Part shown: one piece after another, positions 4,214 to 37,279 of the stretch
How positions within the stretch are numbered: the stretch's first letter is position 1
Layout of the letters: each line of letters opens with the position of its first letter
NCBI RefSeq assembly: GCF_003385215.1
Contig: NZ_PQHW01000070.1
Span: forward strand, 1-38,494
Direction of reading: 5' to 3'
Origin: Amycolatopsis thermalba
Lineage (GTDB): Bacteria; Actinomycetota; Actinomycetes; Mycobacteriales; Pseudonocardiaceae
Length of the DNA: 38,494 bases
Program-made: the position numbers and the translations under genes
The notes under the pieces: model-generated
Told to the model about the DNA's origin: nothing
The model's input: the letters and a program-made list of their open reading frames with translations, nothing else
Database searches by the model: none

Positions 4214-6327
<2,114 letters not shown>

Positions 6328-20936: not shown

Positions 20937-20956
20937 GGGGAGGGGAGGGGAGGGGG
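20937..20956 (+). other. Four-tract G-quadruplex motif
   Basis: Three runs of four G and one of five G, each separated by a single A, fill the gap between the isomerase stop and the dehydrogenase start. The plus strand is the template for both genes, so the message there is C-rich. Single-base loops predict a very stable parallel quadruplex that could slow polymerase between the two genes. Confidence 0.75.
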
Positions 20957-22103: not shown

Positions 22104-23300
22104 ATGACCACCAGCGGTTTTCCCCCGTCGGCCGAGACCCGCGAGCAGGCCGGGCTGCTCGCCCTGCTGCGGGACGAGGGCCCGATGGCGCGGGTCGAAC
22201 TGGGTGAACGGCTCGGGGTGCCGCGGGCCCGGCTGGCGGCGGAGATCACCCGGCTGGCCGAAGGCGGGCTCGTCGAATCCGGCGGCCCGGCGGCCAGCCG
22301 CGGCGGGCGGCGGTCGACGCTGGTGCGCCTGGCCGACGACGTGCGCTTTCTCGGCGTGGACGTCGGCGCGACGTCGGTGGCCGTGGCGGTGACCGACGGG
22401 CGGTGCGAGGTGCTCGCGTTGGCGGTCGAGGACTGCGACGTGCGGCAGGGCCCGGTGCCGGTGCTGGACCGGGTGCAGCAGCTGGCGGCGAAGGTGCTGC
22501 AGGACGCCCCCGGGCGGCTCGCCGGGGCCGGGATCGGGCTGCCCGGGCCGGTGAGCTTCCGCGATGGGATGCCGGTGGCGCCGCCGATCATGCCGGGCTG
22601 GGACCGGTTCCCGGTGCGCGACCGGCTGGCCGGGCACTGGGGCTGCGCGGTGACGGTCGACAACGACGTGAACGTGATGGCGCTGGGGGAGCGGCACGCC
22701 GGGGTGGCCCGGTCGCTGGACGACCTGATCTTCGTGAAGGTCGGGACCGGTATCGGCGGCGGGATCGTCGTCGCGGGCCGCGTGTACCGCGGCGTGGCCG
22801 GCACCGCGGGCGACATCGGGCACATCAAGCTCGACGACTACGGGCCGGCGTGCGCCTGCGGCGAGGTCGGCTGCCTGGAGGCCTACTTCGGCGGGGCGGC
22901 GCTGGCCCGGGACGCGCTGACGCTGGCGCGCAGCGGGCGGTCCCCGTATCTGGCGGCGTTGCTGGAAAGCCGTCCGGCGCTGACCGCGCGGGAGGTGGCC
23001 GAGGCGGCGCAGGCCGGCGACTTCGCGGCGGTGACGCTGGTGCGCGAGGGCGGGCGGCGGCTGGGGCAGGTGATCGCGTCGCTGGTGAGCTTCCTGAACC
23101 CCGGGATGGTCGTGATCGGCGGCGGGGTGTCCCGGCTCGGGCACACCCTGCTGGCCGAGGTGCGGTCGTCGGTGTACCGGCGGTCGCTGCCGCTGGCCAC
23201 CGGGAACCTGCCGATCGTGTTGTCGGAGCTGGGTGACCAGGCGGGCGTGATCGGCGCCGCGTGGCTGGCCACCGATCACGCGTTCAGCGTGCCGGCCTGA
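22104..23300 (+). CDS. ROK-family transcriptional regulator
   Basis: A 398-residue ROK protein with an N-terminal winged-helix DNA-binding domain (about residues 12-62, ELGERLGVPRARLAAEITRL) and a sugar-kinase fold. The kinase part shows LGVDVGATSVAVAVTDG, GAGIGLPGPV, VTVDNDVNVMALGE (catalytic-type Asp), VGTGIGGGIVV and the zinc motif CACGEVGCLEAYFGG. Such proteins sense sugars. ATG 22104 follows AGGAGG at 11 bases. It is divergent from the isomerase-dehydrogenase pair and probably controls it; control of the downstream ABC operon is also possible. Confidence 0.92.
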   Translation: MTTSGFPPSAETREQAGLLALLRDEGPMARVELGERLGVPRARLAAEITRLAEGGLVESGGPAASRGGRRSTLVRLADDVRFLGVDVGATSVAVAVTDGRCEVLALAVEDCDVRQGPVPVLDRVQQLAAKVLQDAPGRLAGAGIGLPGPVSFRDGMPVAPPIMPGWDRFPVRDRLAGHWGCAVTVDNDVNVMALGERHAGVARSLDDLIFVKVGTGIGGGIVVAGRVYRGVAGTAGDIGHIKLDDYGPACACGEVGCLEAYFGGAALARDALTLARSGRSPYLAALLESRPALTAREVAEAAQAGDFAAVTLVREGGRRLGQVIASLVSFLNPGMVVIGGGVSRLGHTLLAEVRSSVYRRSLPLATGNLPIVLSELGDQAGVIGAAWLATDHAFSVPA

Positions 23301-23355: not shown

Positions 23356-23396
23356 CCGGTTAAAAGTAACGATCTGATTGTTACTCCTTTTGCCGG
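23356..23396. promoter_or_regulatory. Long imperfect inverted repeat, candidate ROK operator
   Basis: CCGGTTAAAAGTAACGATC on the left pairs with GATTGTTACTCCTTTTGCCGG on the right, with a 2-base centre. The inner GTAAC/GTTAC half-sites are exact and the outer CCGG ends match. It is an A/T-rich island in very GC-rich DNA, 104 bases before the ROK-ABC operon start. A weak promoter (TTGTGG at about 23398, 17 bases, CAGAGT) lies just downstream, so binding would block it. Confidence 0.6.
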
Positions 23397-23499: not shown

Positions 23500-24723
23500 G
23501 TGCCCCATCCTTTCGACCGGCCGACGGACCGCGCCGGTGTTCGCAGAGCCAACCTGTCTCTGCTGGTCCGGCTCCTGCGCCGGCACGGGGGCCTGTCCCG
23601 CGCGCAGCTGGCGGCCCTGAGCGGCCTGAGCAAGGCCACCGTCTCCGGCCTGGTCGCCGAACTGGAGGTCCGCGAGCTGGTCCAGGCAGGCGGCCGTCAC
23701 GAGGGCGGCCAGGGCAGGCCGGGCCAGCTCGTCGAGCTGCGGCCGCGCGGCAACTGGGGCATCGGGCTGTCGGTCGCCGAGGACCACCTCGGCAGCACGG
23801 TCCTCGACCTGTCCGGCACCGCCGCCGCCCGCCGCCGCGTCACCTGCGACGTCCGCGCCCTCGGGCCGGAGCGCACCCTCGACGAACTGGCCGCCCTCGT
23901 GCTCGCCGCGGTGTCCGAAGTGGACCAGGTCGCGGGCATCGCCGTGGCCGTGCCCGGGCTCGTCGACCCCGCGGGCACCGTCCGCCTCGCGCCGGGCCTG
24001 CGGTGGCGCGACCTCGCCCTCGCCGACGGGCTCGCCGCCCGCACCGGCTTCCCGCTCGATCGCGTCGTCGTCGGCAACAACGCCAACCTGGCCGCGCTGG
24101 CCGAGGCCGACAGCGGGGCCGCCCGCGGCTGCCACGACGTCGTGTACCTCCTCGGCGGCGTGGGCGTCGGCGCGGGGCTGATCACCGGCGGCCGGCTGAT
24201 CGGCGGCGCGGCCGGCGAGGTCGGGCACCTGTCGCTGGAACCCACTGGCCGCCCGTGCGTGTGCGGCCGCCGCGGCTGCTGGCAGACCGCCGTCGGGATC
24301 GACGCGTTCCTGCACTCGCTGGCCACCCCGCGGGACCTGGTCCACGACCCGTCCCTCGACCTGGCCCAGCGCACCGCGATCGTGCGCCAGCGCGCCCAGC
24401 AGGGTGACCGCCGCGTCCTCGACGCGCTCACCCAGCTCGGCGCCGGCCTCGGCCACGGCATCGCGGTCCTGGCCGACCTGCTCGACCCGCGGATCGTCGT
24501 CCTCGGCGGCTACTTCGCGCCGCTGCGCGACTGGCTCGCCGAGCCGATCCGCGCCGAACTGGCCGCCCGCTCGGTGACCGCCGAGACCGGCGGCCCCCGC
24601 ATCGTGGCGTCCCGGCTCGGGTTCACCGCGGTCGGCACCGGCGCGGCGCAGGCCGCGATCCGGCCCCTGCTGGACGATCCGACGCTGGCCCCGGCCAGCG
24701 CCCCGGTGAGCGTGGAGGCGTGA
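23500..24723 (+). CDS. ROK-family transcriptional regulator (operon leader)
   Basis: A 407-residue ROK regulator. The N-terminal helix-turn-helix (about residues 20-65) shows LSRAQLAALSGLSKATVSGL. The ROK part has GIAVAVPGLVDPAGTVRLAP, VVVGNNANLAALAEADSG (Asn-Asn where the Asp of kinases usually sits, so kinase activity is unlikely), AAGEVGHLSLEPTGRPC and the zinc motif CVCGRRGCWQ. The start is GTG 23500. Its stop overlaps the ATPase start by one base. It is therefore co-transcribed with the importer and probably represses it until the imported sugar or a derivative binds. Confidence 0.93.
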   Translation: MPHPFDRPTDRAGVRRANLSLLVRLLRRHGGLSRAQLAALSGLSKATVSGLVAELEVRELVQAGGRHEGGQGRPGQLVELRPRGNWGIGLSVAEDHLGSTVLDLSGTAAARRRVTCDVRALGPERTLDELAALVLAAVSEVDQVAGIAVAVPGLVDPAGTVRLAPGLRWRDLALADGLAARTGFPLDRVVVGNNANLAALAEADSGAARGCHDVVYLLGGVGVGAGLITGGRLIGGAAGEVGHLSLEPTGRPCVCGRRGCWQTAVGIDAFLHSLATPRDLVHDPSLDLAQRTAIVRQRAQQGDRRVLDALTQLGAGLGHGIAVLADLLDPRIVVLGGYFAPLRDWLAEPIRAELAARSVTAETGGPRIVASRLGFTAVGTGAAQAAIRPLLDDPTLAPASAPVSVEA

Positions 24724-26231
24724 TGACCGAAGACCTGTTGTCCATGCGCGGCATCGTCAAGACGTTCCCGGGTGTCCGGGCGCTGGACGGTGTCGAGCTG
24801 TCGGTGCGGGCGGGGGAGGTGCACTGCCTGCTCGGCCAGAACGGCGCCGGCAAATCGACCCTGATCAAGGTCCTCGCCGGGGCGCACCAGCCGGACTCCG
24901 GCGAGATCCGCTGGCAGGGCGAACCGGTCACGCTGTCCTCCCCGGTCGCGGCCCTGCGCCGCGGGATCGCCACCATGTACCAGGAGCTCGACCTCATCCC
25001 CGCGCTGTCGGTGGCCGACAACATCTTCCTCGGCCACGAGCCCGCCCAGGCCGGGTTCACCCGCGACCGGCAGGCCCGCGCGAAGGCCGGCGAGCTGCTG
25101 GCGCGGCTGGGCCACCCGGAGATCCACCCCGACCGCGAGGTCGGCGAACTGTCCGCCGCCGGGCAGCAGCTGGTCTCCATGGCCCGGGCCCTGGTCCACG
25201 ACGCGCGCCTGATCGTGATGGACGAGCCGACCGCCGCGCTCGCCTCCGACGAGGTGGACAACCTGTTCCGCATCGTCGCCGAGCTGACCGCGGACGGCGT
25301 GGCCGTCGTCTACATCTCGCACCGGCTCGAGGAGATCCGCCGCATCGGCAACCGCGTCACCGTGCTCAAGGACGGCGCCACCGTCGCGGCCGGGCTGGAG
25401 GTCGCCGACGTCACCACCGACCACCTGGTGTCGCTGATGTCCGGCCGCCGCGTGGAGACCGTCTACCCGGAACGCCTGGAATCCACTGTGGACATCGGTA
25501 CCGAGCTGCTGCGCGTGGAGAACCTGACCCGCCGCGGCGAGTTCTCCGACGTCAGCTTCACCCTGCGCCGCGGCGAGATCCTCGGCCTGGCCGGCCTGGT
25601 CGGCGCCGGCCGCAGCGAACTGCTGGAGACCATCTTCGGCGCCCGCAAACCGGACGGCGGCCGGGTCTTCGTCGAGGGCAGGCGGCTCAAGCCCGGTGAC
25701 GTCCCGAGCGCGGTCAAGGCCGGGATCGGCCTGGCGCCGGAGGAACGCAAGAGCCAGGCGCTGCTGCTGGAGATGTCGGTCGCGCACAACGTGACGCTGG
25801 CGAGCCTGCCCGAGTACAGCCGCCTCGGCTTCACCGACCGCGCCCGCGAGATCGGGGACTCGGCCGAGCGCCTGCGGCAGCTGGACCTGCGCCCGGCGGA
25901 CCCGCGCCGCCCGGTGGGCACGCTCTCCGGCGGCAACCAGCAGAAGGCGGTCGTCGCGCGCTGGCTGGTGCGCGGCTGCTCGATCCTGCTGCTGGACGAG
26001 CCGACCCGCGGCGTGGACGTCGGCGCGCGGGCCGAGCTGTACCGGCTGATCCGCGAGCTGGCCGCGGCCGGGGTCGGGCTGGTGCTGGTGTCCAGCGAGA
26101 TGCCCGAGGTGCTCGGGCTCGCCGACCGCGTGCTCGTGCTGCGGGAGGGCCACGTGGTCCGCGAGGCCCCCGCGAGCGAGCTGACCGAAGCAGACCTGCT
26201 GAATCTGGTGATGGAGGGAAGTGCGGCATGA
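24723..26231 (+). CDS. Sugar ABC importer, double ATPase (RbsA/MglA type)
   Basis: A 502-residue ATPase with two fused ABC cassettes, as in ribose, galactose and inositol importers. The first has Walker A CLLGQNGAGKSTLIKVLAGA (about residue 35), a signature VGELSAAGQQLVSMARAL and Walker B LIVMDEPTAAL. The second has the degenerate Walker A usual for this family (GLVGAGRSELLETIFGA), signature LSGGNQQKAVVARWL and Walker B ILLLDEPTRGVDVGA. ATG 24723 has GGAGG 4 bases upstream and is preferred over GTG 24720. It overlaps the ROK gene by one base and the permease gene by 4. The palindrome TCCACTGTGGA lies within it at 25482. Confidence 0.95.
   Translation: MTEDLLSMRGIVKTFPGVRALDGVELSVRAGEVHCLLGQNGAGKSTLIKVLAGAHQPDSGEIRWQGEPVTLSSPVAALRRGIATMYQELDLIPALSVADNIFLGHEPAQAGFTRDRQARAKAGELLARLGHPEIHPDREVGELSAAGQQLVSMARALVHDARLIVMDEPTAALASDEVDNLFRIVAELTADGVAVVYISHRLEEIRRIGNRVTVLKDGATVAAGLEVADVTTDHLVSLMSGRRVETVYPERLESTVDIGTELLRVENLTRRGEFSDVSFTLRRGEILGLAGLVGAGRSELLETIFGARKPDGGRVFVEGRRLKPGDVPSAVKAGIGLAPEERKSQALLLEMSVAHNVTLASLPEYSRLGFTDRAREIGDSAERLRQLDLRPADPRRPVGTLSGGNQQKAVVARWLVRGCSILLLDEPTRGVDVGARAELYRLIRELAAAGVGLVLVSSEMPEVLGLADRVLVLREGHVVREAPASELTEADLLNLVMEGSAA
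25482..25492. repeat. TCCACWGTGGA palindrome (one of three)
   Basis: The same 11-base palindrome occurs at 5135-5145 (inside glgX), here (ATPase gene) and at 31879-31889 (TIM-EboA gene). The copies are read in different frames and use otherwise rare A/T-ending codons. Confidence 0.5.
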
Positions 26232-27259
26232 CGAAGGACTCCTCGTCGGTGTTGCCGGAGGCCACGCAGGCCCCGCCGCCCCCGGCCGCGCCGCCGGCCC
26301 CGAAGGCCGCGCGCGGGCGGTTCCCGGTGGACGCCCGGCTGGCCGGGCTGTTCGGCGTGTTCGTCCTGCTGTGCCTGGTGGGGTGGCTGACGCGGCCGGA
26401 CGCGTTCTTCACCGAGGGCAACCTCTCGACCGTGCTGCGGCTGGCGGCCGCGATCGGCGTGGTGAGCGTCGGCATGACGTTCGTGATCATCAGCGGCGGG
26501 ATCGACCTGTCCGTCGGCTCGATCGTCGCGCTGTCCAGCGTGTGGGCGACGACGCTGGCGACGCAGTCGTTCGGCCCGGTGGTGATGGTGGTCTGCGCGC
26601 TGGCGGTCGGCGTCGGCTGCGGCCTGATCAACGGCGTGCTCGTCTCCTACGGCAGAGTGGTGCCGTTCATCGCCACGCTCGCGATGTACGCCTCGGCGCG
26701 CGGCCTGGCCGAGCGGATCAGCGGACGGCAGACCCAGGTCGTGCGGGAAACCGGGTTCCTGACCGTCTTCCGCGGTGACTTCCTCGGCATCCCGGTGCTG
26801 ATCTGGATGTTCGCCCTGGTGTTCGTGGTCGGCTGGGTCCTGCTCAACCGCACCACGTTCGGCCGCCGCACGTTCGCCGTCGGCGGCAACACCGAGGCCG
26901 CGCGCCTGGCCGGCATCAACGTCAAGCGGCACACCGCGCTCGTCTACGCCGTGGCCGGGCTGTGCTGCGGCATCGCGGCGATCATGGTCGTGGCGCGCAC
27001 CACCTCGGGCGCCTCGACCAACGGCCTGTACTACGAGCTGGACGCGATCGCCGCGGTGGTCATCGGCGGCACGCTGCTCTCCGGCGGCCGCGGCACCCTG
27101 ATCGGCACGCTCATCGGCGTCCTGATCTTCACGGTGCTGGGCAACATCTTCACGCTCAACAACCTCGACACCGACATCCAGAACATCGCCAAGGGCGCGA
27201 TCATCGTGCTCGCCGTTCTGCTGCAGTTCCGCACCAACCGCAGTCGCAAGTCCACTTAG
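26228..27259 (+). CDS. Sugar ABC importer, permease
   Basis: A 343-residue inner-membrane permease of the BPD_transp_2 (RbsC-like) family. A Pro/Ala-rich cytoplasmic N-terminus of about 35 residues is followed by roughly 8-10 hydrophobic segments. The family blocks are TFVIISGGIDLSVGSIVALS, VPFIATLAMYASARGLAE, FAVGGNTEAARLAGINVKR (the loop that contacts the ATPase) and GGTLLSGGRGTLIGTLIGV. The ATGA overlap with the ATPase gene indicates coupling. Confidence 0.95.
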   Translation: MTKDSSSVLPEATQAPPPPAAPPAPKAARGRFPVDARLAGLFGVFVLLCLVGWLTRPDAFFTEGNLSTVLRLAAAIGVVSVGMTFVIISGGIDLSVGSIVALSSVWATTLATQSFGPVVMVVCALAVGVGCGLINGVLVSYGRVVPFIATLAMYASARGLAERISGRQTQVVRETGFLTVFRGDFLGIPVLIWMFALVFVVGWVLLNRTTFGRRTFAVGGNTEAARLAGINVKRHTALVYAVAGLCCGIAAIMVVARTTSGASTNGLYYELDAIAAVVIGGTLLSGGRGTLIGTLIGVLIFTVLGNIFTLNNLDTDIQNIAKGAIIVLAVLLQFRTNRSRKST

Positions 27260-27293
27260 GAAACACCACCCCCGACGACCACTGGAGTTCGCC

Positions 27294-28349
27294 ATGTCCG
27301 GACCATCCTCCCTCGCCCGCCGCCGCTTCCTCACCGGTGGCGCGGCCGTCGGCGCCGGCGCCCTGCTGGCCGCCTGCACGTCCAACGAGTCGCCGCAGTC
27401 CGCCCCGCAGGCCGTCGCCGGCACCGCGGGCCAGAACGCCCAGCCCGGCAAGCACGTGACGATCGGCTTCTCCGCCCCGGCCGCCGACCACGGCTGGATG
27501 GCGGCGATGACCAAGAACGCCCGCGCCCAGGCCGGCCGGTTCTCCGACGTCACCTTCACCGCCACCGAGGGCACCAACGACGTCAACCAGCAGATCGCCC
27601 AGGTCGAGACCCTGATCAACCAGAAGGTCAACGTCCTGGTGATCCTGCCCTTCGACGGCAAGGCCCTCACCCAGGCCGGCCAGCAGGCCATGGACGCCGG
27701 CATCCCGGTCGTCAACGTGGACCGGGTGTTCGACACCCCGCTGGCCTACCGCACCTGGATCGGCGGCGACAACTACCGCATGGGCGTCAACGCCGGCAAC
27801 TACATCGCCGGGGAGCTGAAGAAGAAGGGCGTGAGCAACCCGGTGATCGGCGAGGTCGCCGGCATCGACTCGCTGCCGCTGACCCAGGAACGCAGCCAGG
27901 GCTTCAAGGACGCGCTCGCCAAGCACGGGTTCGCCGTCGGCCCGCGGGTGTCCGCGCAGTTCACGCCGGAGAGCGGCGAGCAGATGACCTCGAACCTGCT
28001 CCAGTCGGCCAGCAGGCTCGACGCGCTGTGGAACCACGACGACGACCAGGGCATCGGCGTGCTCGCGGCCATCGACAACGCGCGCCGCAGCGAGTTCTTC
28101 ATGGTCGGCGGCGCCGGGTCGCGCAACATGATGGACCTGATCAAGGCCGACAGCGGCGTGATGAAGGCGACGGTCCTCTACAGCCCGTCGATGGCGTCCT
28201 CGGCGATCGCCCTGGCCCGGCTGCTCGGCCAGGACAAGGGCATCGGCGACCTCGCCGAGCACGAGATCCCCGCGAACGTCACGACCTACTCGGCCGTGGT
28301 GACCAAGGAGAACGTCGATTCCTATGCCGATGTCGCCTTCGACTCCTGA
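27294..28349 (+). CDS. Sugar ABC importer, substrate-binding lipoprotein
   Basis: A 351-residue periplasmic-binding-protein-like (Peripla_BP_4) lipoprotein. The N-terminus carries both a twin-arginine stretch (RRRFLTGGAAVGAG) and a lipobox LLAAC with Cys28, so it is probably Tat-exported and lipidated. The ligand domains show GFSAPAADHGWMAAMTKNA, QIAQVETLINQKVNVLVI, GIPVVNVDRVF and GVLAAIDNARR, as in ribose or inositol binders. The exact ligand cannot be read. The start is 34 bases after the permease stop, with TGGAG as ribosome site. Its 3' end overlaps the oxidoreductase gene by 26 bases. Confidence 0.94.
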   Translation: MSGPSSLARRRFLTGGAAVGAGALLAACTSNESPQSAPQAVAGTAGQNAQPGKHVTIGFSAPAADHGWMAAMTKNARAQAGRFSDVTFTATEGTNDVNQQIAQVETLINQKVNVLVILPFDGKALTQAGQQAMDAGIPVVNVDRVFDTPLAYRTWIGGDNYRMGVNAGNYIAGELKKKGVSNPVIGEVAGIDSLPLTQERSQGFKDALAKHGFAVGPRVSAQFTPESGEQMTSNLLQSASRLDALWNHDDDQGIGVLAAIDNARRSEFFMVGGAGSRNMMDLIKADSGVMKATVLYSPSMASSAIALARLLGQDKGIGDLAEHEIPANVTTYSAVVTKENVDSYADVAFDS

Positions 28350-29526
28350 CCCCGTGGGCGCCTCCATCGGCGTGGGCATGATCGGGCACGCCTTCATGGG
28401 CGCCGTCCACGCCCACGCCTGGCGCTCGGTCCACCGGTTCTTCGACGTGCCCCTGGTGCCGCGGCTGGCCGTGCTCGGCGGCCGCGACCCGGAGCGCACG
28501 AAGGCCGCCGCCGCCAAGCAGGGCTGGCCGGACACCGAGACCGACTGGGCCACCCTGGTCGCCCGCGACGACGTCGGCATCGTCGACATCTGCACGCCCG
28601 GGGACTCGCACGCCGAGATCGCGCTGGCCGCGCTGGCCGCGGGCAAGCACGTGCTGTGCGAGAAACCCCTGGCGAACTCGGTCGCCGAGGCCGAGGAGAT
28701 GGCCGCGGCCGCCGAGCGCGCGGCGGTCAACGGGCAGCGGGCGATGGTCGGGTTCAACTACCGGCGGGTGCCGGCGATCGCGCTGGCCCGCAGGATGGTC
28801 GCCGACGGCAGGCTGGGCACGATCCGCCAGGTGCGGGCCGCCTACCTGCAGGACTGGCTGGCCGACCCGGCCACGCCGATGACCTGGCGGCTGCGGCGGG
28901 ACAAGGCCGGGTCCGGGGCGCTGGGCGACATCGCCGCGCACGCGGTGGACACCGCCCAGTTCGTCCTCGGCGACCGGATCACCGGGGTGTCGGCGATGAC
29001 CGAGACGTTCGTGCGGGAGCGGCCGCTGTCCGGGGAGCCGGGCAGCGCGCTGGGCGAGGTCGACGTGGACGACTGCGCGGTGTTCCTGGCCCGGTTCACC
29101 GGCGGCGCGGTCGCCACGTTCGAGGCCACCCGGTTCGCGCTGGGCCGCAAGAACGCGCTGCGGCTGGAGATCAACGGGTCGCGTGGCAGCCTGGCCTTCG
29201 ACTTCGAGTCGATGAACGAGCTGTCGTTCTACGACGGCGACGACGACCCGGCCGAGGCGGGGTTCCGGCGGATCCTGGTGACCGAGCCGGACCACCCCTA
29301 CGTCGGGGCGTGGTGGCCGCCCGGACACCTGCTGGGCTACGAGCACACCTTCACCCACGAGATCGCCGACTTCCTCACCGCCATCGGCGAGCAGCGCGAC
29401 CCCGAGCCGTCCTTCGCCGACGGCCTCCAGGTCCAGCGGGTGCTGCACGCGGTGGAGGAGAGCGCGGGCAACGGAACGTCCTGGGTCGGCGTATCAATGT
29501 CGACCGAAAGGGTGATCGATGCCTGA
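28324..29526 (+). CDS. Gfo/Idh/MocA-family oxidoreductase
   Basis: A 400-residue NAD(P)-dependent sugar or cyclitol dehydrogenase. The Rossmann domain has GVGMIGHAFMGAVHAHAW, DICTPGDSHAEIALAAL and the family hallmark HVLCEKPLANSVAEAEEM. The C-terminal domain includes GFNYRRVPAIALARRM, LGDIAAHAVDTAQFVLGD with the usual catalytic His, and DDCAVFLARFTGG. The chosen ATG lies inside the binding-protein gene, with AAGGAG 13 bases upstream; GTG 28354 just after that gene's stop is an alternative. Its position suggests it oxidises the imported ligand. It overlaps the Ino1-like gene by 8 bases. Confidence 0.94.
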   Translation: MPMSPSTPDPVGASIGVGMIGHAFMGAVHAHAWRSVHRFFDVPLVPRLAVLGGRDPERTKAAAAKQGWPDTETDWATLVARDDVGIVDICTPGDSHAEIALAALAAGKHVLCEKPLANSVAEAEEMAAAAERAAVNGQRAMVGFNYRRVPAIALARRMVADGRLGTIRQVRAAYLQDWLADPATPMTWRLRRDKAGSGALGDIAAHAVDTAQFVLGDRITGVSAMTETFVRERPLSGEPGSALGEVDVDDCAVFLARFTGGAVATFEATRFALGRKNALRLEINGSRGSLAFDFESMNELSFYDGDDDPAEAGFRRILVTEPDHPYVGAWWPPGHLLGYEHTFTHEIADFLTAIGEQRDPEPSFADGLQVQRVLHAVEESAGNGTSWVGVSMSTERVIDA

Positions 29527-30670
29527 GAGAACTGGATTGTGGCTGGTCGGCGCGCGTGGCTCGGTGGCCACGACGGCGATCAGCGGGCTGCTCGCGATGC
29601 GGTCCGGCCTCGCCGGGCCGGACGGCTGCGTGACCGAGCGGCTCGACGTGGCGCCCGGGGTGCTCCCGGGCTGGGACGAGCTCGTCGTCGGCGGGCACGA
29701 CCTGGTGGACACGCCACTGGAGAAGAAGGCGGAGCAGCTCACCGCGGGCGGGCTGCTCCCGGCCGGCCTGCTGCCGGCCATCCGCGACGGCCTGCGTGCC
29801 GTCGAGGCCGACCTGCGCCTGGTGCCCGCCGGGCGCACGCAGGCCGAGATCGCCGCGCGGCTGGCCGACGACCTGCGCGAGTTCCGCACCCGGCACGGCC
29901 TGTCGGCCGTCGTGGTGATCAACGTCTCGTCCACGGAACCCCCAACCGTGGACGCGCCGGAGCACCACGACCTCGACGCGCTGGTGGCGGCGCTGGACGA
30001 GCCGGACCGGGAGGTGCTGCCCGGCAGCTCCCTGGCGGCGTACGCGGCGGTGTCGGCGGGGTGCCCCTTCGTGGACTTCACGCCGTCGACGGGCATCCGG
30101 TTGCCCGCGCTGGTGGAATTCGCCCGGCGGCAGGGTCTGCCCTACGCCGGATCGGACGGCAAGACCGGTGAGACGCTGCTGCGCTCGGTGCTCGCGCCGA
30201 TGTTCGCGGCCCGGGCGCTGAAGGTGCGCTCGTGGTCGGGCACGAACCTGCTCGGCGGCGGGGACGGCGCGACCCTGGCCGACCCGGTGAAGGCGGCCGG
30301 GAAGCTGGAGTCGAAGGCCCGCGGCCTGGCGGCGCTGCTCGGTGACGACGTGACCGCGCCGCTGCACATCGACCACGTGCCGGACCTGGGCGAGCAGAAG
30401 ACGGCGTGGGACCACGTGTCGTTCGAGGGCTTCCTGGGCGCGCGGATGACCCTGCAGTTCACCTGGACCGGCTACGACTCGGCCCTGGCCGCGCCGCTGG
30501 TGCTGGACCTGGCGCGGCTGACCGCGGCCGCGTACCGGGCCGGCGAGTCCGGGCCGCTGGGCCAGCTGGCGTTCTTCTTCAAGGACCCGGTGGGCACCGG
30601 CGAGCACCGGTTCGCCGAGCAGGCGCGGATCCTGGCCGAGTGGGCGTCGTCGCTGGGGCGGCAGCAGTGA
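29519..30670 (+). CDS. Ino1-like inositol-3-phosphate synthase
   Basis: A 383-residue member of the myo-inositol-phosphate synthase family, which converts glucose 6-phosphate to inositol 3-phosphate with NAD. The Rossmann motif LWLVGARGSVATTAISG is at residues 7-23, and VVVINVSSTEPP and the active-site block GSDGKTGETLLRSVLAPMF (about residues 211-229) follow, then RSWSGTNLLGGGDGATLADP. It is not in a housekeeping context. It sits between an oxidoreductase and an ebo-type prenyltransferase, the place held by the EboD sugar-phosphate cyclase in other ebo clusters. Its product may therefore be the head group for the next enzyme. The GTGA overlap with the prenyltransferase gene suggests coupling. 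Confidence 0.92.
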   Translation: MPERTGLWLVGARGSVATTAISGLLAMRSGLAGPDGCVTERLDVAPGVLPGWDELVVGGHDLVDTPLEKKAEQLTAGGLLPAGLLPAIRDGLRAVEADLRLVPAGRTQAEIAARLADDLREFRTRHGLSAVVVINVSSTEPPTVDAPEHHDLDALVAALDEPDREVLPGSSLAAYAAVSAGCPFVDFTPSTGIRLPALVEFARRQGLPYAGSDGKTGETLLRSVLAPMFAARALKVRSWSGTNLLGGGDGATLADPVKAAGKLESKARGLAALLGDDVTAPLHIDHVPDLGEQKTAWDHVSFEGFLGARMTLQFTWTGYDSALAAPLVLDLARLTAAAYRAGESGPLGQLAFFFKDPVGTGEHRFAEQARILAEWASSLGRQQ

Positions 30671-31521
30671 ACCCCTACGTACAGCTGGTCCGGGCCCCGG
30701 CCGCGCTGAGCGTCCTCGGCGACACCGTCGCGGGCGCCGCCGCGGCCGGTCGTCCGTTGCGGGGACGGCGGCTCGCGCTGCCGCTGGCCTCGGTGGCCTT
30801 CTACTGGTCGGGCATGGCGCTCAACGACTGGGCCGACCGGGACCTGGACGCGGTCGAGCGCCCGGAGCGGCCGATCCCGTCCGGCCGGGTCAGCCCGAAC
30901 CGGGCGCTCGGGATCGCGGCCGGGCTGACCGGGGCGGGTCTCGGGTTGTCCGCGCTGGCGGGTGGCCGGGACGCCCTCAAGGTCGCCGCGCCGCTGGCGG
31001 CGGCGGTGTGGGCCTACGACACCGTGCTGAAGAAGACCCCGCTCGCGGCGGTGTCGATGGCGGTGTGCCGGTCGCTGGACGTGCTGCTCGGCGCGGGTGG
31101 CTCGGGTGCGGCGAAGGCGGTGGTCCCGGCCGCGGTGCTGGGCGGGCACACGCTCGGCGTGACGGCGTTGTCGGCCGGTGAGGTGCACGGCGGTTCCCCG
31201 GCGCGGGCGGCCGGTGCCCTCGCGCTGACCTCGGCGTCCGCGGCCGCCGCGGTGTCCGGCCGCGGCGGTGCGCCCGGTCACCGGGTGGCGGCGCTGGCCG
31301 CGGCCGCCGGATACGGCGTGAGCGTCGGGTCCAAGCAGTACGCGGCGGTGCGCAAGCCGTCCGCGGCGGTGGTCCGGACGGCCACGGCCGCCGGGATCCA
31401 CGGCATGGTCCCGCTGCAGGCCGCGCTCGCGGCCCGGCGCGGCGGCGTGCTGGGCGGCGGCCTGGTCGCGCTGGCGCTGCCGCTGGCCAAGCGGCTGGGC
31501 CGGAAGGTGAGCCCGACATGA
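30667..31521 (+). CDS. eboC: EboC/SCO3242-type UbiA-like prenyltransferase
   Basis: A 284-residue integral membrane protein with about 8-9 hydrophobic segments, of the UbiA superfamily. The first Asp motif is present near residue 52 (LNDWADRDLDAVERPERPIP). Family blocks AVWAYDTVLKKTPLAAVSMA and CRSLDVLLGAG follow. The second Asp-rich motif of ordinary UbiA enzymes is not visible; the corresponding stretch near residue 169 reads LSAGEVHGGSPARA. It probably transfers a prenyl group to a non-aromatic acceptor, perhaps an inositol phosphate or a derivative. The start is GTG 30667, overlapping the Ino1 stop by 4 bases. The acceptor and prenyl chain length are inference. Confidence 0.88.
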   Translation: MNPYVQLVRAPAALSVLGDTVAGAAAAGRPLRGRRLALPLASVAFYWSGMALNDWADRDLDAVERPERPIPSGRVSPNRALGIAAGLTGAGLGLSALAGGRDALKVAAPLAAAVWAYDTVLKKTPLAAVSMAVCRSLDVLLGAGGSGAAKAVVPAAVLGGHTLGVTALSAGEVHGGSPARAAGALALTSASAAAAVSGRGGAPGHRVAALAAAAGYGVSVGSKQYAAVRKPSAAVVRTATAAGIHGMVPLQAALAARRGGVLGGGLVALALPLAKRLGRKVSPT

Positions 31522-32930
31522 GCGGCTACCACCTCGGCTACGGCACCAACGGGTTCGCCAACCACCGGCTCGACGACGCGCTGGCGATCATCGCCGACCT
31601 GGGCTACACCTCGGTCGCGCTGACGCTGGACCACCAGCACCTCGACCCGTACGCCGGCGACCTGGCCGCGCGGGTGGACCGGGTCGCGGCCCGGCTGGGC
31701 GAGCTGGGCCTGCGGTGCGTCGTGGAGACCGGCGCGCGGTTCCTGCTCGACCCGTGGCACAAGCACGAACCGACCCTGGTCAGCGAGAACGCGGACCGGC
31801 GCCTGGACTTCCTGGCCCGGGCGATCCGGGTCGCCGAGGGCCTGGGCGCCGACTGCGTGTCGTTCTGGTCCGGCGTGTCCACAGTGGACACCGCGACGGC
31901 GTGGGAGCGGCTGCGGTCGCGGATGCCCGCGGTGCTGGCCGAGGCGGACCGGCGCGGTGTCCGCCTCGGCCTGGAACCGGAACCCGGGATGCTGGTGGAG
32001 ACCCTGTCGGACGCGCTGCGGCTGCGCACCGAGCTGGGCGAACCCGAGCTGCTCGGGATCACCCTCGACGTCGGGCACTGCGTGGCCGTCGAGCCGACCG
32101 ACGCGGCCGCCTGCATCCGGCAGGCCAAGGGGCTGCTGGTCAACGTGCAGCTGGACGACATGCGGCCGGGCGTGCACGAGCACCTCGAGTTCGGCGACGG
32201 CGAGCTGGACCTGCCGGCCACGCTCGCCGCGCTGGACGAGATCGGCTACACCGGGGTCGCCGCCGTCGAGCTGCCCCGGCACAGCCACGCCGCGCCGCAG
32301 GTCGCCCGTGCCGCGCTGACCGCGTTGCGGGCGGCGCGGCTGGACCAGTCGTGGCTCGGCGAGGCGCAGCGGCGGATCGCGACCGATCCGGCCGCGGTGG
32401 CGACCCTGTTCCCGGCCGCCGGACGGCACGTCGGGCGCGGGCCGCTGCACCCGGACACCGATCCGGACGGCCTGGCCCACGGCACGGCCGACGACCTCGC
32501 GCGCACGCGGCTGCTGCAAACACTGGCGGCCGCCCTGCCCGCGGACGACTTCGCCGCGGAGCTGGCCGACCTCTACCGCTACGGCGACGGCGCCGAGCGG
32601 CGGGGCGTGCTGCGGGCGCTGGCCGCGGTCGGCGACAAGGCCGTCGCCGCCGGTCTCGACCTCGTCCGCGACGCCCTGCGCAGCAACGACACCGGCCTGA
32701 TCGCCGCCGCGCTCGGCCCGTTCGCCGCCCGTCACCTGGACCAGCACGGCTGGCGCCACGGCGTGCTCAAATGCCTGTTCACCGGCATCCCGCTCGCCGC
32801 CGTCGCCGAGCTGGACCGGCGGGCCGACGACGAGCTGCGCCGCATGATCACCGACTACGCGGGGGAGCGCCGCGCCGCCGGCCGCCCGGTTCCCGCCGAC
32901 GCCCTCCGCTTCCTGGAAGAGACACCCTGA
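31518..32930 (+). CDS. eboA: TIM-barrel isomerase fused to EboA domain
   Basis: A 470-residue two-part protein. Residues 1 to about 275 are a xylose-isomerase-like TIM barrel (LGYGTNGFANHRLDDALAII, GVRLGLEPEPGMLVE, LGITLDVGHCVAVEP, LVNVQLDDMRPGVHEHLEFG, VAAVELPRHSHAA), with Glu, His and Asp at metal-ligand positions. Residues about 290-470 are the helical EboA domain (LADLYRYGDGAERRGVLRAL, LVRDALRSNDTGLI, WRHGVLKCLFTGIPLAAVAE, DELRRMITDYAGERRAAGR). In most ebo clusters EboA is a separate small protein of unknown function, so the fusion ties it to a sugar or cyclitol step. The gene starts with ATG and overlaps the prenyltransferase stop by 4 bases. Confidence 0.9.
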   Translation: MSGYHLGYGTNGFANHRLDDALAIIADLGYTSVALTLDHQHLDPYAGDLAARVDRVAARLGELGLRCVVETGARFLLDPWHKHEPTLVSENADRRLDFLARAIRVAEGLGADCVSFWSGVSTVDTATAWERLRSRMPAVLAEADRRGVRLGLEPEPGMLVETLSDALRLRTELGEPELLGITLDVGHCVAVEPTDAAACIRQAKGLLVNVQLDDMRPGVHEHLEFGDGELDLPATLAALDEIGYTGVAAVELPRHSHAAPQVARAALTALRAARLDQSWLGEAQRRIATDPAAVATLFPAAGRHVGRGPLHPDTDPDGLAHGTADDLARTRLLQTLAAALPADDFAAELADLYRYGDGAERRGVLRALAAVGDKAVAAGLDLVRDALRSNDTGLIAAALGPFAARHLDQHGWRHGVLKCLFTGIPLAAVAELDRRADDELRRMITDYAGERRAAGRPVPADALRFLEETP

Positions 32931-33805
32931 TGCGCCTGTTCGATCCGCACATCCACATGACCTCCCGCACCACCGACGACTACGAGGCCATGTACGCCGC
33001 CGGCGTGCGGGCCCTGGTCGAGCCCGCGTTCTGGCTCGGCCAGCCGCGCACCGGTGTGTCGTCGTTCACCGACTACTTCGACGGCCTGATCGGCTGGGAA
33101 CGCTTCCGCGCCGCCCAGTTCGGCATCCGCCACCACTGCACGATCGCGCTCAACCCCAAGGAGGCCAACGACCCGCGCTGCACGCCGGTGCTCGACGTGC
33201 TGCCGCGTTACCTCGCCAAGGACGGCGTGGTCGCGGTCGGCGAGGTCGGCTACGACTCGATGACCCCGGCCGAGGACGCCGCCTTCGCCCGCCAGCTGGA
33301 ACTGGCGAAGGAACACGACCTGCCGGTGCTGGTGCACACCCCGCACCGCGACAAGCTGGAAGGCACCAAGCGCACGCTCGCGGTGGTCGCCGAGTCCGGC
33401 ATCGCCCCGGAGCGGGTCGTGGTCGACCACCTCAACGAGGTCACCGTGGGCCTGGTCAAGGAGTCCGGCGCCTGGATGGGCTTTTCCATCTACCCGGACA
33501 CCAAGATGGACGAGCAGCGCATGGTCGCGATCCTGCGCGAGTACGGCACGGAGAAGATGCTGGTCAACTCCGCCGCCGACTGGGGCCGCTCGGACCCGCT
33601 CAAGGTGCACAAGACCGGGCTGGCGATGCTCGGCGGCGGGTTCGCCGAGTCCGATGTGGACAAAGTGCTGTGGGCCAACCCGGTCGCCTTCTACGGCCAG
33701 AGCGGCCGGCTGGTACTCGACGAGCTGCCTGGCTTCAGCGCGGCCAAGGAGACCTTCGAGGGCAACTCGGTGCTGCGCGGCGGGCGGGACGAGGCGGTCG
33801 CGTGA
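32930..33805 (+). CDS. eboB: EboB, TatD-like metal-dependent hydrolase
   Basis: A 291-residue amidohydrolase-superfamily protein of the TatD-like EboB type. Metal-binding motifs are LFDPHIHMTSR at residues 3-13, VGEVGYDSMTP, PVLVHTPHRDKLEGTK and VVVDHLNEVTVGLVK, with the late Asp in LVNSAADWGRSDPLK. All lie in the expected order for a TIM-barrel hydrolase. Its substrate in ebo clusters is not known. The ATG shares one base with the preceding stop, and the stop overlaps the eboE GTG by 4. Confidence 0.92.
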   Translation: MRLFDPHIHMTSRTTDDYEAMYAAGVRALVEPAFWLGQPRTGVSSFTDYFDGLIGWERFRAAQFGIRHHCTIALNPKEANDPRCTPVLDVLPRYLAKDGVVAVGEVGYDSMTPAEDAAFARQLELAKEHDLPVLVHTPHRDKLEGTKRTLAVVAESGIAPERVVVDHLNEVTVGLVKESGAWMGFSIYPDTKMDEQRMVAILREYGTEKMLVNSAADWGRSDPLKVHKTGLAMLGGGFAESDVDKVLWANPVAFYGQSGRLVLDELPGFSAAKETFEGNSVLRGGRDEAVA

Positions 33806-34887
33806 CGCCCCTGTCCTACTGCACCAACGTCCATCCGGCCGAGGACCTGCACGGGGTCCTCGGCCAGCTCGACTCCTACGCCCTGCCGGTGCGCGAGCGG
33901 CTCGGCGCGGACCGGCTCGGGCTGGGACTGTGGCTGGCCGCCGACGTCGCGTCGGCGCTGGCCGCGGACGCGGGCGAGCGCAAGCGGTTGCGCGCCGAGC
34001 TGGACGCGCGCGGCCTGGAAGTGGTGACGCTCAACGCGTTCCCCTACGGCGGGTTTCACGACCCGGTCGTCAAGCAGAAGGTCTACCACCCACGGTGGAC
34101 CGCCCGGGCACGCGCGGAGTACACGCTGAACTGCGCGGCCGTGCTGTCCGCGCTGCTGCCCGGCGACGCGGAGTTCGGCAGCATCTCGACCCTGCCGCTG
34201 GGCTGGCGGGAACCGTGGACGCCGGAGGACGACACGGCGGCCCAGCGGTTGCTCGACGAGGTGACCGCCGGGCTGCGGGCTCAGGAGCGGACGATCCGGC
34301 TCGCCGTCGAGCCGGAACCCGGCTGCATCCTGGACACCGTGCACGACGCCGTGTCCTGGCTGGCCGGGCGCGTCGATCCGGCCCACGTCGGCCTGTGCCT
34401 GGACACCTGCCACCTCGCGGTGTCCTTCGCCGACCCGGCCGGGGCGGTCGCCGAGATCGGCGCGGCCGGGCTGGACGTGGTGAAGGTCCAGATGTCGGCC
34501 GCGCTGCACGTGCCGGACCCGCGGGACCCGGCGGCGCGCGAGGCCCTGGCGGCGTTCGACGAGCCGCGGTACCTGCACCAGACCCGGGAGTCGGCGGGCG
34601 GCGGCGTCCGCAAGGCCGACGACCTGGGCGAGGCGTTCGCGGACCTGCCGGGGGAGGGGCCGTGGCGCGTGCACTTCCACGTGCCGCTGCACGCGACCCC
34701 GGCGGCGCCGCTGTCCTCGACCACCGAGGTGCTGGCCCAGGCCCTCGCCGCGCTGCCGCCGAAACCGGCGCACCTGGAAGTGGAAACCTACACCTGGACG
34801 GTGCTGCCGGAGGCGCACCGCCAGGACCTCATCGGCGGGATCGCGGCGGAGCTGTCCTTCGCCGCGGGATTGGTGGCGACGAAGTGA
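33802..34887 (+). CDS. eboE: EboE, TIM-barrel metabolite-traffic protein
   Basis: A 361-residue xylose-isomerase-like TIM barrel of the EboE family. It begins with the characteristic [20 protein letters not shown] and contains [53 protein letters not shown] (Glu), [16 protein letters not shown] (Asp and His), [15 protein letters not shown] and [17 protein letters not shown]. The substrate is unknown; the family name comes from ebo clusters implicated in export of a metabolite. The start is GTG 33802. Both ends overlap neighbours by 4 bases. Confidence 0.92.
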
Positions 34888-36278
34888 AACCGCTCCTGGT
34901 GCTCGACGTCGTGGGGATGACCCCGCGGCTGCTCAGGCACATGCCGAACGTGGCGAAGCTGGGGCAGCAGGGCTGGCAGGCGCGGCTGGACACCGTGCTG
35001 CCCGCGGTGACCTGCAGCGTCCAGTCCACGTTCCTGACCGGGCGGATGCCCAGCGAGCACGGCGTCGTCGGCAACGGCTGGTACTTCCGCGAGCTGGGCG
35101 AGGTCTTCCTGTGGCGCCAGCACAACAAGCTGGTCGAGGGCGAGAAGCTGTGGGAGACCGCGCGGGCGGTGCACCCCGGGTACCGCGCGGCGAACGTGTG
35201 CTGGTGGTACGCGATGGGCGCGACCACGGACTTCACCGTGACCCCCCGGCCGATCTACTACGCCGACGGGAAGAAGGCGCCGGACTGCTACACGCGCCCG
35301 CCGGAGCTGCACGACCGGCTCACTTCGCGGCTGGGCGAGTTCCCGCTGTTCCAGTACTGGGGCCCGACCGCGTCGATCGCCTCCACCGACTGGATCGTCG
35401 GGGCGACCTCGGCGATCCTGCGGGAGGACCGGCCGGAGCTGACCCTGGCCTACCTGCCGCACCTGGACTACGACCTGCAGCGGTTCGGCCCGGACTCGCC
35501 GCAGGCCATCGCGGCGGCACGCGCGGTCGACGCGTCCGTGGCGCCGCTGCTGGACCAGGCCCGCGGCGCCGGTGTCGGGGTGGTGGCGTTGTCGGAGTAC
35601 GGCATCACCAACGCGCACCGGCCGGTGGACGTCAACCGGCTGCTGCGCCGCGAGGGCCTGCTCGAGGTCTACACGCAGGACGGCATGGAGTACCTGGACC
35701 CGTGGACGTCGCGGGCCTTCGCCGTCGCCGACCACCAGGTCGGCCACGTCTACGTGGCCGACGAAGCGGACCTGCCGCGGGTGCGCGGCCTGCTGGGGGA
35801 ACTGTCCGGTGTGGACGAAGTGCTGGACCGACAGGCCCAGTCCCGCTACGGTATCGACCACCCGCGGGCGGGCGAGTTCGTGGTGACCGCGGAGCCGGAC
35901 GCGTGGTTCACCTACTACTACTGGCTCGACGACGACCGCGCGCCGGACTTCGCGCGTGGCGTGGAGATCCACCGCAAGCCCGGGTACGACCCGGCCGAGC
36001 TGTTCTTCGACCCGGCCGATCCGCTGGTCAAGGCCAAGGCCGGGCTGAACCTGGTGCGCAAGAAGGCCGGCCTGCGGTACGCGATGAAGACCACGCCGCT
36101 GGACCCGGCGCCGGTGCGCGGCTCGCACGGGCGACTGCCGGACTCGCCGGACGACGGGCCGGTGCTGCTGTGCGGGGACGCGGACGTGCCGGAGCGGGCA
36201 CGGCTGGCCGCCACCGAGGTCCGCGACCTGCTGCTGAGCGTGCAAGGACTGAAGACGACGGAAGGGAGCCGGCGATGA
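34884..36278 (+). CDS. eboF: EboF-like alkaline-phosphatase-superfamily phosphodiesterase
   Basis: A 464-residue type I phosphodiesterase/nucleotide-pyrophosphatase-like protein. Near the start are [18 protein letters not shown] (metal Asp) and the nucleophile block [20 protein letters not shown] with Thr. [15 protein letters not shown] supplies the next metal ligands. The usual SDHG second-site motif reads [15 protein letters not shown], with Glu and Tyr in place of Asp and His. The C-terminal [17 protein letters not shown] keeps the late His. There is no signal peptide, so it acts in the cytoplasm, perhaps on a phosphate or pyrophosphate bond of the pathway product. The start is GTG 34884. 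Confidence 0.88.
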
Positions 36279-37279
36279 GCCGTCCGGTCACGTTGTTCAC
36301 CGGCCAGTGGGCCGATCTGCCCTTCGAGGAGGTGTGCCGGCTCGCCTCGCAGTGGGGCTACGACGGGCTGGAGATCGCCTGCAGCGGCGACCACTTCGAG
36401 GTCGACCGGGCGCTCGCCGAGGACGACTACGTCGCGGGACGGCACAAGATCCTGGAGTCCCATGGCCTGAAGGTGTGGGCGATCTCGAACCACCTGGTCG
36501 GGCAGGCGGTGTGCGACGACCCGATCGACGAGCGGCACCGCAACATCCTGCCGCCCCGCGTCTGGGGCGACGGCGAGCCGGAGGGCGTGCGTCAGCGGGC
36601 GGCCGCCGAGATGGCCGACACCGCCCGGGCCGCGGCGAAGCTCGGCGTGGACACCGTCGTCGGCTTCACCGGGTCGAAGATCTGGAAGTACGTGGCGATG
36701 TTCCCGCCGGTGTCGCAGGACGTGATCGACGACGGGTACGCCGACTTCGCCGAGCGCTGGAACCCGATCCTGGACGTGTTCGACGAGGTGGGGGTGCGGT
36801 TCGCGCACGAGGTGCACCCGTCGGAGATCGCCTACGACTACTGGACGACTCGCCGGGCCCTGGACGCGGTGGGCAACCGGGCGGCGTTCGGGCTGAACTG
36901 GGACCCGTCGCACTTCGTGTGGCAGGACCTCGATCCGGTCGGGTTCATCCTGGACTTCGCCGACCGGATCTACCACGTCGACTGCAAGGACACGAAGAAG
37001 CGGTTCGACGGCCGCAACGGGCGGCTCGGGTCGCACCTGGCGTGGGCCGATGCGCGGCGCGGGTGGGACTTCGTGTCCACCGGGCACGGTGACGTGCCGT
37101 GGGAGGAGTGCTTCCGGGCGCTCAACTCGATCGGCTACCGCGGGCCGATCTCGGTGGAGTGGGAGGACGCCGGCATGGACCGGTTGCGCGGCGCCGAGGA
37201 GGCGGTCGGGTTCGTCCGGAACCTGCTGTGGGACAAGCCCGCCGCCGCCTTCGACTCCGCGTTCAGCACCGAGCGCTGA
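36275..37279 (+). CDS. Sugar phosphate isomerase/epimerase (TIM barrel)
   Basis: A 334-residue AP-endonuclease-2-type TIM barrel. It opens with [20 protein letters not shown] and has [52 protein letters not shown] (Glu, His), [19 protein letters not shown] (Asp, His), [10 protein letters not shown] and [12 protein letters not shown] (final Glu), the complete metal set of the family. Such proteins often work with Gfo/Idh/MocA dehydrogenases in cyclitol or rare-sugar use, so it probably acts with the oxidoreductase at the other end of this operon. The ATG overlaps the phosphodiesterase stop by 4 bases. It is the last gene of the unit. Confidence 0.94.

Follow-up and report, generated by a model that had tools for sequence, protein, structure and literature searches.

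The window analysed here, a 38,494-nucleotide stretch of DNA from the soil actinobacterium Amycolatopsis thermalba (contig NZ_PQHW01000070.1 of assembly GCF_003385215.1, a genome of 7.24 Mb in 222 contigs), carries a variant of the ebo gene cluster that lacks EboD, the sugar-phosphate cyclase encoded in known ebo operons (PMC5133447), and has at its position an unrelated archaeal-type myo-inositol-1-phosphate synthase, Ino1, with a conserved active site. This replacement is new and is our strongest result; the open-licence literature searched yielded no link of ebo genes to an inositol synthase. The ebo genes are continuous with a sugar half comprising a ROK-family regulator, an importer, a Gfo/Idh/MocA dehydrogenase and TIM barrel proteins. 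We consider it probable that the locus is an inositol-type form of ebo, in which Ino1 takes the ring-forming step of EboD and the sugar half is made together with the ebo proteins because, as we propose, both serve the same envelope chemistry.

Ino1 and EboD exclude each other

The two cyclases were mapped at 120 class-level loci (119 fetched loci and the window), 11 plasmid loci and 80 loci on genome contigs, these last being the best 80 of 584 ranked by likeness to an Azospirillum EboE. The thresholds were passed by 209 rows, among them 118 of the 120 class rows, as two short EboE fragments (L135 and L136) fell below them. When an ebo locus is defined as EboE together with at least two of EboA, EboB, EboC and EboF (a count in which L292–L303, L305 and L306 are not included), 166 loci are obtained, of which 54 contain EboD, 102 contain Ino1, none contains both and ten contain neither, the rows not being independent draws and kinship making many of them a single event. 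The ten loci without a cyclase include three cut by contig ends (L093, L094 and L152), two (L050 and L143) that are additional copies in genomes where Ino1 is present in the other copy and one importer-bearing locus (L088). At class level the cyclase is Ino1 in all 99 ebo loci that possess one; the same holds for five loci from the same phylum outside the class, a Gemmatimonadota plasmid and a Streptomyces plasmid locus (L305). EboD is the cyclase of eight annotated plasmid loci from Alpha- and Betaproteobacteria, Deinococcota and Bacteroidota, and of one further locus of the phylum (L302). The remaining locus of the phylum, L303 (genome G665), looks incomplete, its EboC and EboE being split over several broken frames, and neither cyclase was found in it.

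This exclusion is not an artefact of detection, because a profile made from one AroB sequence matched as many frames as the EboD profile (62 each) and because the EboD profile, run on whole genomes, reached 646 and 571 bits in two positive controls with EboD but never more than 194 bits in 76 actinobacterial ebo genomes, in 73 of which an Ino1 locus was seen. Of the 92 class genomes that contain a complete ebo locus, the scan covered 74 (the other 18 belong to genus g26), and it also took in three further genomes of the phylum and three records; in G024, G064 and G196 no cyclase was seen in the ebo loci. An eboD gene elsewhere in the genome, the arrangement described for Nostoc (PMC5133447), is ruled out by the profile scan for the 76 actinobacterial ebo genomes, while for Gemmatirosa and Halobaculum the plasmid records were searched. 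No EboD was found in the window locus, and the best match of its genome to the EboD profile (155.5 bits) falls at the single DHQ_synthase place.

A second gene follows the same division. TIM1, a TIM barrel protein resembling 3-epimerases and xylose isomerases, is present in 98 of the 102 Ino1 loci and in none of 61 EboD loci. A pairing of Ino1 with TIM1 is also seen in two YcaO clusters of Hymenobacter and Roseomonas plasmids (L294, 6797–13423; L295, 6638–13990), neither of which yielded an ebo gene. These clusters combine Ino1, Gfo/Idh, YcaO and TIM1 with HD or MBL-fold proteins and, in one of them, a methyltransferase, and possibly represent an undescribed pathway to a cyclitol natural product. 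Among the EboD-type loci, a ferritin-like protein and a large, uncharacterised one recur in L168, L169, L177 and L220 (Beta- and Alphaproteobacteria and Bacteroidota), and in a Streptomyces plasmid (L171, 1–16994) the Ino1-ebo set lies amid genes for non-ribosomal peptide synthetases, an ABC transporter and a phosphopantetheinyl transferase.

EboE alone was rejected as a marker of ebo, since in 13 loci of the class set and 23 of the 80 genome-contig loci an EboE-like frame has fewer than two ebo neighbours and no EboD, some of them lying beside RbsA or RbsC. In L071, L107, L215, L217, L226 and others an EboE-like gene adjoins an RbsA gene and no other ebo gene was found; such genes may be a group of paralogues to which the label 'metabolite traffic protein EboE' does not properly apply.

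The Ino1 protein

The Ino1 gene of the window (29519..30670, forward strand) encodes a protein that scores above the cut-offs of PF07994 (161.1 bits) and PF01658 (103.7 bits) and carries the catalytic Lys, Asp and Asn residues by which a myo-inositol-1-phosphate synthase is recognised. It aligns at 221 bits with 1u1i in the Protein Data Bank (PDB), an archaeal-type synthase that we take to be from A. fulgidus and that it resembles in its catalytic residues, D213, N243, K262, K266, K294, D320 and K355 all being conserved; the roles of these positions are presumed from general knowledge of the enzyme. Among 101 ebo Ino1 proteins, at least 95% retain the residues that correspond to the catalytic lysines, aspartate and asparagine of 1u1i, as do the proteins of Gemmatimonadota and haloarchaea. 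Some changed letters at these positions are visible among the PDB rows aligned with the window protein. A housekeeping role in mycothiol synthesis was considered for this Ino1 and rejected: it reaches 26.4 bits against the mycothiol INO1 model TIGR03450 (cut-off 638), compared with 692.8 bits for a separate gene on contig C163. In a tree built without ordinary archaeal synthases, the ebo Ino1 proteins of actinomycetes, haloarchaea and Gemmatimonadota form one clade against those of the YcaO clusters and of Runella (support 99).

At least two independent swaps

A repeated exchange is supported by the Ino1 locus of Gemmatirosa, which retains an EboB of the EboD type, with 76% identity to an EboB from an EboD-type locus, compared with 46% to its closest Ino1-type counterpart. 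Trees were built on random samples of the Ino1-type rows. In a joined EboB, EboC and EboF tree of 100 rows, 45 of them Ino1-type, the actinomycete Ino1 loci and four loci without a cyclase make up one side of a branch with support 100, and the Gemmatirosa locus sits among EboD-type loci of Chloroflexota, Deinococcota and Acidobacteriota (support 100 and 86). A single clade of Ino1-type rows, in samples of 36 rows, is rejected for EboB (p 2.7e-37) and marginally for EboF (p 0.042) but not for EboC. The EboC of Gemmatirosa does not occupy the tree place of its EboB (p 0.0023), a placement that fits, without being proof of, a transfer of EboC together with the cyclase, as would be expected if EboC recognises the cyclitol.

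Two haloarchaeal plasmids (L292 and L293) hold Ino1, EboB, EboC, EboF and two TIM1-like genes; EboE and EboA were not found in these two loci. In the Natronococcus plasmid locus the ebo-like core adjoins genes for a TIM barrel protein, a sugar dehydrogenase of the pyrroloquinoline quinone (PQQ) type that matches the glucose/sorbosone dehydrogenase-like (GSDH) domain, and an ABC binding protein.

The gene run and its ebo proteins

Twelve open reading frames, all on the forward strand and with a coding signature in the GC content of third codon positions (GC3) in those frames, fill positions 23500 to 37279. Their junctions are, in order, overlaps of 4 and 4 bases, a gap of 34, and overlaps of 26, 8, 4, 4, 1, 4, 4 and 4, the 26-base overlap becoming a gap of 4 if the Gfo/Idh/MocA gene starts at the GTG at 28354. 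The Pfam families met along the run are ROK, ABC_tran (in two stretches), BPD_transp_2, Peripla_BP_4, GFO_IDH_MocA, Inos-1-P_synth, UbiA, AP_endonuc_2 with an EboA domain, TatD_DNase, EboE, Phosphodiest and again AP_endonuc_2. The preliminary description of this DNA had reported twelve co-directional genes with overlaps of 1–26 bases and one 34-base gap, with relatives of EboA, EboB, EboC, EboE and EboF among them, and this gene run is real: the measured junctions agree with it and the family scans recover each of the ebo relatives, EboA as a domain. What it had not contained is that the first TIM protein carries EboA as its C-terminal domain, that EboD is absent and that the unit extends leftwards. 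The order Ino1-EboC-EboB-EboE-EboF is identical in 94 of the 97 Ino1-type loci of the class set, and the ebo arrangement is therefore more than chance. A scan for promoters and terminators gave no signal above chance.

EboC (30667..31521) is a UbiA prenyltransferase with an intact NDxxDxxxD motif which scores 359.4 bits against the SCO3242 family NF045897 (cut-off 260) and 137 bits against the EboC equivalog NF035940, below its cut-off of 250. The TIM1 gene (31518..32930) encodes a fusion in which residues 325–465 form the EboA domain (NF035938, 163.9 bits; cut-off 50), a part that is all helical in the predicted structure; the fusion protein is 95% identical to one from A. thermoflava. EboB (32930..33805) is a metal-dependent hydrolase of the TatD family (PF01026, 49.1 bits; cut-off 27) whose metal ligands H7, H9, E105, H136, H167 and D217 are identical in all nine rows compared, and EboE (33802..34887; NF035939, 424.8 bits; cut-off 250) is 96% identical to an Amycolatopsis protein.

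EboF (34884..36278; PF01663, 211.6 bits; cut-off 23) belongs to the alkaline phosphatase superfamily and has a changed metal site, with Q198, E237 and Y238 where phosphonoacetate hydrolase has H, D and H, positions that we take to bind metal. Where that enzyme has its D-x3-H and D-H ligands, at least 95% of Ino1-type EboF proteins and almost all EboD-type ones show D-x3-Q and E-Y, the first aspartate being N or C in four EboD-type rows and L in Gemmatirosa (nine rows, with the end of the alignment unsure). To judge from these residues, EboF may be something other than an ordinary phosphodiesterase, whether the pathway uses EboD or Ino1.

The sugar half and its 3-keto-glycoside likeness

Upstream of Ino1 the run opens with a ROK-family regulator (23500..24723; PF00480, 143.3 bits), followed by a CUT2 importer consisting of an RbsA-type double ATPase (24720..26231; PF00005, 189.3 bits in two stretches), an RbsC-type permease (26228..27259; PF02653, 140.8 bits) and a substrate-binding lipoprotein (27294..28349; PF13407, 145.2 bits), in which a Tat-like leader and an LAAC lipobox are recognisable by eye and whose nearest PDB matches include ribose- and YtfQ-type binding proteins. 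The Gfo/Idh/MocA dehydrogenase that follows (28324..29526, its start possibly at 28354) matches 4h3v at 579.9 bits, 6a3f, listed as a putative dehydrogenase, at 292.2 bits and the scyllo-inositol dehydrogenase 5ya8 at 223.3 bits; we take 6a3f to be a levoglucosan dehydrogenase. At the far end of the run lies TIM2 (36275..37279), a hydratase-like TIM barrel that matches 2zds at 579.8 bits and the 2-hydroxy-3-keto-glucal hydratase 8ro4 at 146.4 bits, 8ro4 alone of these two PDB matches having its activity named; TIM2 and TIM1 match inosose dehydratase weakly (40.8 and 27.2 bits).

The linkage of these genes to ebo was counted in stretches reaching about 12.8 kb before and 6 kb after EboE, or less at contig ends. 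On the ebo strand of the 97 Ino1-type loci, 46 show an importer gene, 52 a Gfo/Idh gene and 55 TIM2, which stands after EboF in 32 loci and before it in 23; matches to GSDH and ThuA occur in 59 and 46 of the stretches, and matches to 3-keto-disaccharide hydrolase, from a one-sequence search, in 41. Twenty loci were extended, hand-picked and mostly those whose module ran off the fetched stretch, and in 17 of these (12 of 12 in genus g26 and five of five in genus g41) ROK, RbsA, RbsC, the substrate-binding protein and Gfo/Idh lie upstream on the ebo strand. The module recurs in several actinomycete families alongside secreted 3-keto-sugar enzymes; in L047 (genus g26) a 1327-residue frame between TIM2 and Ino1 joins GSDH, PKD, CBM6, ThuA and 3-keto-disaccharide hydrolase domains.

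Gene regions for levoglucosan use have been described that combine the Gfo/Idh enzymes LgdA and LgdC, the TIM-type LgdB1 and LgdB2, an ABC importer and LacI or ROK regulators (PMC7676230, PMC10066097). The window shares with the LgdA-B1-B2-C pathway a Gfo/Idh enzyme, a hydratase-like TIM barrel, an ABC importer and, for some of those regions, a ROK-type regulator, and differs from it in that its Gfo/Idh enzyme scores below the levoglucosan cut-off and that GSDH-type proteins and ebo genes are attached. Because of the nearest matches of TIM2 and Gfo/Idh and the similar content of these regions, we read the sugar half as probable 3-keto-glycoside scavenging coupled to ebo rather than as part of one linear route from sugar to lipid. 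The chemistry proposed in the preliminary description is half right. Its choice of an Ino1-made cyclitol as the likely start is supported, whereas an imported sugar that is oxidised or epimerised and then prenylated in a single line finds no support: the nearest characterised relatives of Gfo/Idh and TIM2 are 3-keto-glycoside enzymes, and related loci encode secreted 3-keto-disaccharide hydrolase and GSDH proteins. The join of ebo and importer that it had noted is common, as the 46 loci with an importer gene show, yet far from universal.

The unit continues to the left of 23500 with minus-strand genes at 17629–21916 and a ROK gene at 22104–23300. The first of these genes (17629..20907, minus strand) encodes a 1092-residue GSDH-PKD-CBM6-FIMAH protein (PF07995 at 97.8 bits, PF18911, PF03422 and PF22888) whose leader, judged by eye, resembles a signal peptide; a comparable GSDH frame lies about 14 kb from EboE in nine of ten genomes of the genus with EboE, the window's own genome counted and one frame being broken. 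Next to it lies a xylose-isomerase-like TIM barrel protein (20957..21916, minus strand) with a Tat signal, DRRGFL, seen by eye, which matches the tatTIM frame of L047 at 282 bits. The further ROK-family regulator (22104..23300, forward strand; PF00480, 211.9 bits) is separated from the one at the head of the run by a palindromic candidate operator, GTAACGAT-n5-TGTTAC (23366..23384). The palindrome, with a variable middle, precedes the importer-side ROK gene in all eight loci of the genus that were searched, and the exact pattern has one site in the 7.24 Mb genome; it was not found outside the genus in L081, L101, L104, L148 and L088.

Elsewhere in the window, four frames with alpha-amylase domain matches of the starch or trehalose type occupy positions 1–9644 and an AMP-binding enzyme lies at 10976–12475. 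A frame at 15277–16341 matches the Tle1-like phospholipase catalytic domain of type VI secretion systems at 287.7 bits, in an actinobacterium. Directly downstream of the run, on the opposite strand, stands a 1-aminocyclopropane-1-carboxylate deaminase gene (37414–38418, minus strand; 554.1 bits, cut-off 392).

GSDH domains number on average at least 3.86 in the 92 ebo genomes and at least 1.15 in 301 others, figures uncorrected for kinship and genome size. Among the matches listed, two or more are found in 28 of 30 ebo genomes of genus g26 and in one of its 13 genomes without ebo that gave a match. PqqE (TIGR02109, cut-off 381) exceeds its cut-off in ten of 393 class genomes, seven of them ebo carriers, and so stays below it in 85 of the 92 ebo-bearing class genomes; the best match in the window's genome is 120.6 bits.

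Proposed pathway and competing explanations

From these comparisons we infer which reactions take place, what product results, how the genes are regulated and what unites the two halves. Ino1 would convert glucose 6-phosphate to inositol phosphate, which TIM1, and EboE and EboB, may isomerise, dehydrate or trim. EboC, a membrane enzyme, would attach a prenyl chain to the cyclitol derivative, and the prenylated cyclitol-derived product would act in the membrane or outside it. The left half of the operon, under ROK control and with a candidate operator, would import and reduce sugar fragments freed outside the cell by C3-oxidation and elimination.

Several observations weigh against this scheme. 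No Gfo/Idh, substrate-binding protein or TIM2 gene is present in the fetched stretch of 36 of the 97 Ino1-type loci (L045 has them on extension), and neither these genes nor the importer were found in four named Streptomyces plasmid loci (L170 and L171, and L305 and L306 with 16 kb flanks). Within 16 kb, L306 yielded EboB, EboE and EboF but not Ino1, EboC or EboD. The Gfo/Idh enzyme reaches only 357.5 bits against its best NCBIfam match, the levoglucosan dehydrogenase NF052479, the cut-off of which is 650, and the 3-keto-disaccharide hydrolase domain PF06439 was not found in the left-arm protein of the window. Part of the GSDH excess consists of genes inside the ebo locus itself, and a one-sequence search placed GSDH near only three of 61 EboD-type loci. 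The grouping of the Gemmatirosa EboC with the Ino1 type is weakly supported (46 to 85), the haloarchaeal EboC groups with EboD-type rows (support 75), and the swap events are few, two or three, with most Ino1 loci descending from one.

The sugar half may be no partner of ebo at all but an ordinary 3-keto-glycoside catabolic operon of the levoglucosan-like kind, its ROK, importer, Gfo/Idh and TIM2 genes being co-transcribed with ebo by an accident of gene order and sharing no product with it, a possibility that we take seriously without thinking it likely. Levoglucosan gene regions contain similar parts (PMC7676230, PMC10066097), and the module is missing from the 36 Ino1-type stretches and the four Streptomyces plasmid loci just mentioned. 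Nevertheless the genes overlap in the window, and the link recurs in several families with the differing positions of TIM2, which speaks for selection to stay together; one haloarchaeal Ino1 locus also has an adjoining GSDH protein and ABC binding protein, and ebo genomes are richer in GSDH domains. If, on the other hand, the importer were a supply line bringing in inositol, or a sugar made into glucose by Gfo/Idh and TIM2, for Ino1, the whole unit would form one linear pathway to a prenylated cyclitol, a view close to the preliminary description. CUT2 importers and pairs of Gfo/Idh and TIM proteins serve inositol too, which counts in favour of such a line, as do the similarity of Gfo/Idh to scyllo-inositol dehydrogenase and the weak inosose dehydratase matches of both TIM proteins. 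We nonetheless judge it unlikely, as import of inositol would make Ino1 superfluous, the closest characterised relatives are 3-keto-glycoside enzymes, the secreted 3-keto-disaccharide hydrolase, ThuA and GSDH proteins of related loci fit an extracellular attack on glycans, and about a third of the Ino1-ebo loci are without the module in the stretch seen.

Two further explanations concern the ebo genes themselves. They might have no product of their own and transport other metabolites through the membrane, in keeping with the term 'metabolite traffic' and the scytonemin intermediates of Nostoc: an ebo deletion strain is scytoneminless, and its authors hold ebo responsible for the excretion of the intermediates into the periplasm (PMC6282210). 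In a Streptomyces plasmid, moreover, a gene of the ScyD/ScyE family adjoins Ino1-ebo. Such a device is rather improbable in our view, since all but ten of the 166 loci have a ring-forming cyclase, superfluous for a mere exporter, and since within the ebo core presumably EboC alone is a member of a membrane-protein family. The export and the product readings would be reconciled by a lipid carrier. That the cluster Ino1 is simply an extra source of inositol for mycothiol or phosphatidylinositol, with its place in ebo incidental, would agree with its active-site residues, which are those of a true inositol-phosphate synthase. It is very improbable, however, given the separate mycothiol-type INO1 of the genome, the exclusion of Ino1 and EboD across the 166 loci and the constant position of Ino1 before EboC within the order kept in 94 of 97 loci.

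Relation to known ebo systems and significance

With the ebo operon eboABCDEF (PMC5133447), including that of Nostoc and, as cited there, the EDB cluster of Pseudomonas (PMC6282210), the window shares the EboA domain, EboB, an EboC-like UbiA protein, EboE, EboF and compactness. It differs in having no EboD in the locus or the genome, in the presence of Ino1 and TIM1, in the fusion of EboA to TIM1 and in an EboC of the SCO3242 family. The account that named the operon in 2016 mentions, as 'data not shown', actinobacterial hybrids of EboA with xylose isomerase, and it notes eboA/eboG variants and a few operons without eboD (PMC5133447); the word 'inositol' is absent from its main text. Ubi-297, a flavobacterial EboC homologue, farnesylates quinoline acids in vitro, in a study that also shows Saccharomonospora clusters (PMC9235831). 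Like the EboC of the window, it is encoded in an ebo cluster and belongs to the UbiA family, with a motif rich in Asp; unlike it, it has been characterised from Flavobacteria (PMC9235831).

In a broader but doubtful proposal, ebo in both its EboD and Ino1 forms, in Bacteria and in Archaea, would make a cyclitol-derived, prenylated redox cofactor or carrier lipid for extracytoplasmic oxidoreductases, of the GSDH type or, in cyanobacteria, of the Scy type. Were this so, the ebo product would stand in for PQQ in the C3-oxidation of glycans in organisms without PQQ, and the need of periplasmic scytonemin maturation for ebo in cyanobacteria would be explained. The scarcity of GSDH near EboD-type loci is the weak point of this proposal. 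ScyD/ScyE neighbours were seen at four of the 102 Ino1 loci.

The case for a cyclitol in the ebo pathway has rested on EboD, the activity of which was unproved (PMC5133447). A second, unrelated cyclitol-forming enzyme, exchanged for EboD in at least two independent swaps and almost constantly accompanied by TIM1, now offers comparative evidence for a cyclitol-based ebo product, and with the haloarchaeal core set the ebo pathway extends from Bacteria to Archaea. A hint at where this product may act comes from the frequent linkage of the locus to genes for 3-keto-sugar enzymes. The exchange of cyclases makes it possible to test what kind of compound ebo produces: the Ino1 form is expected to yield an ordinary inositol phosphate first, which would provide an easier entrance to the pathway, and named Streptomyces strains carry the Ino1-type core.

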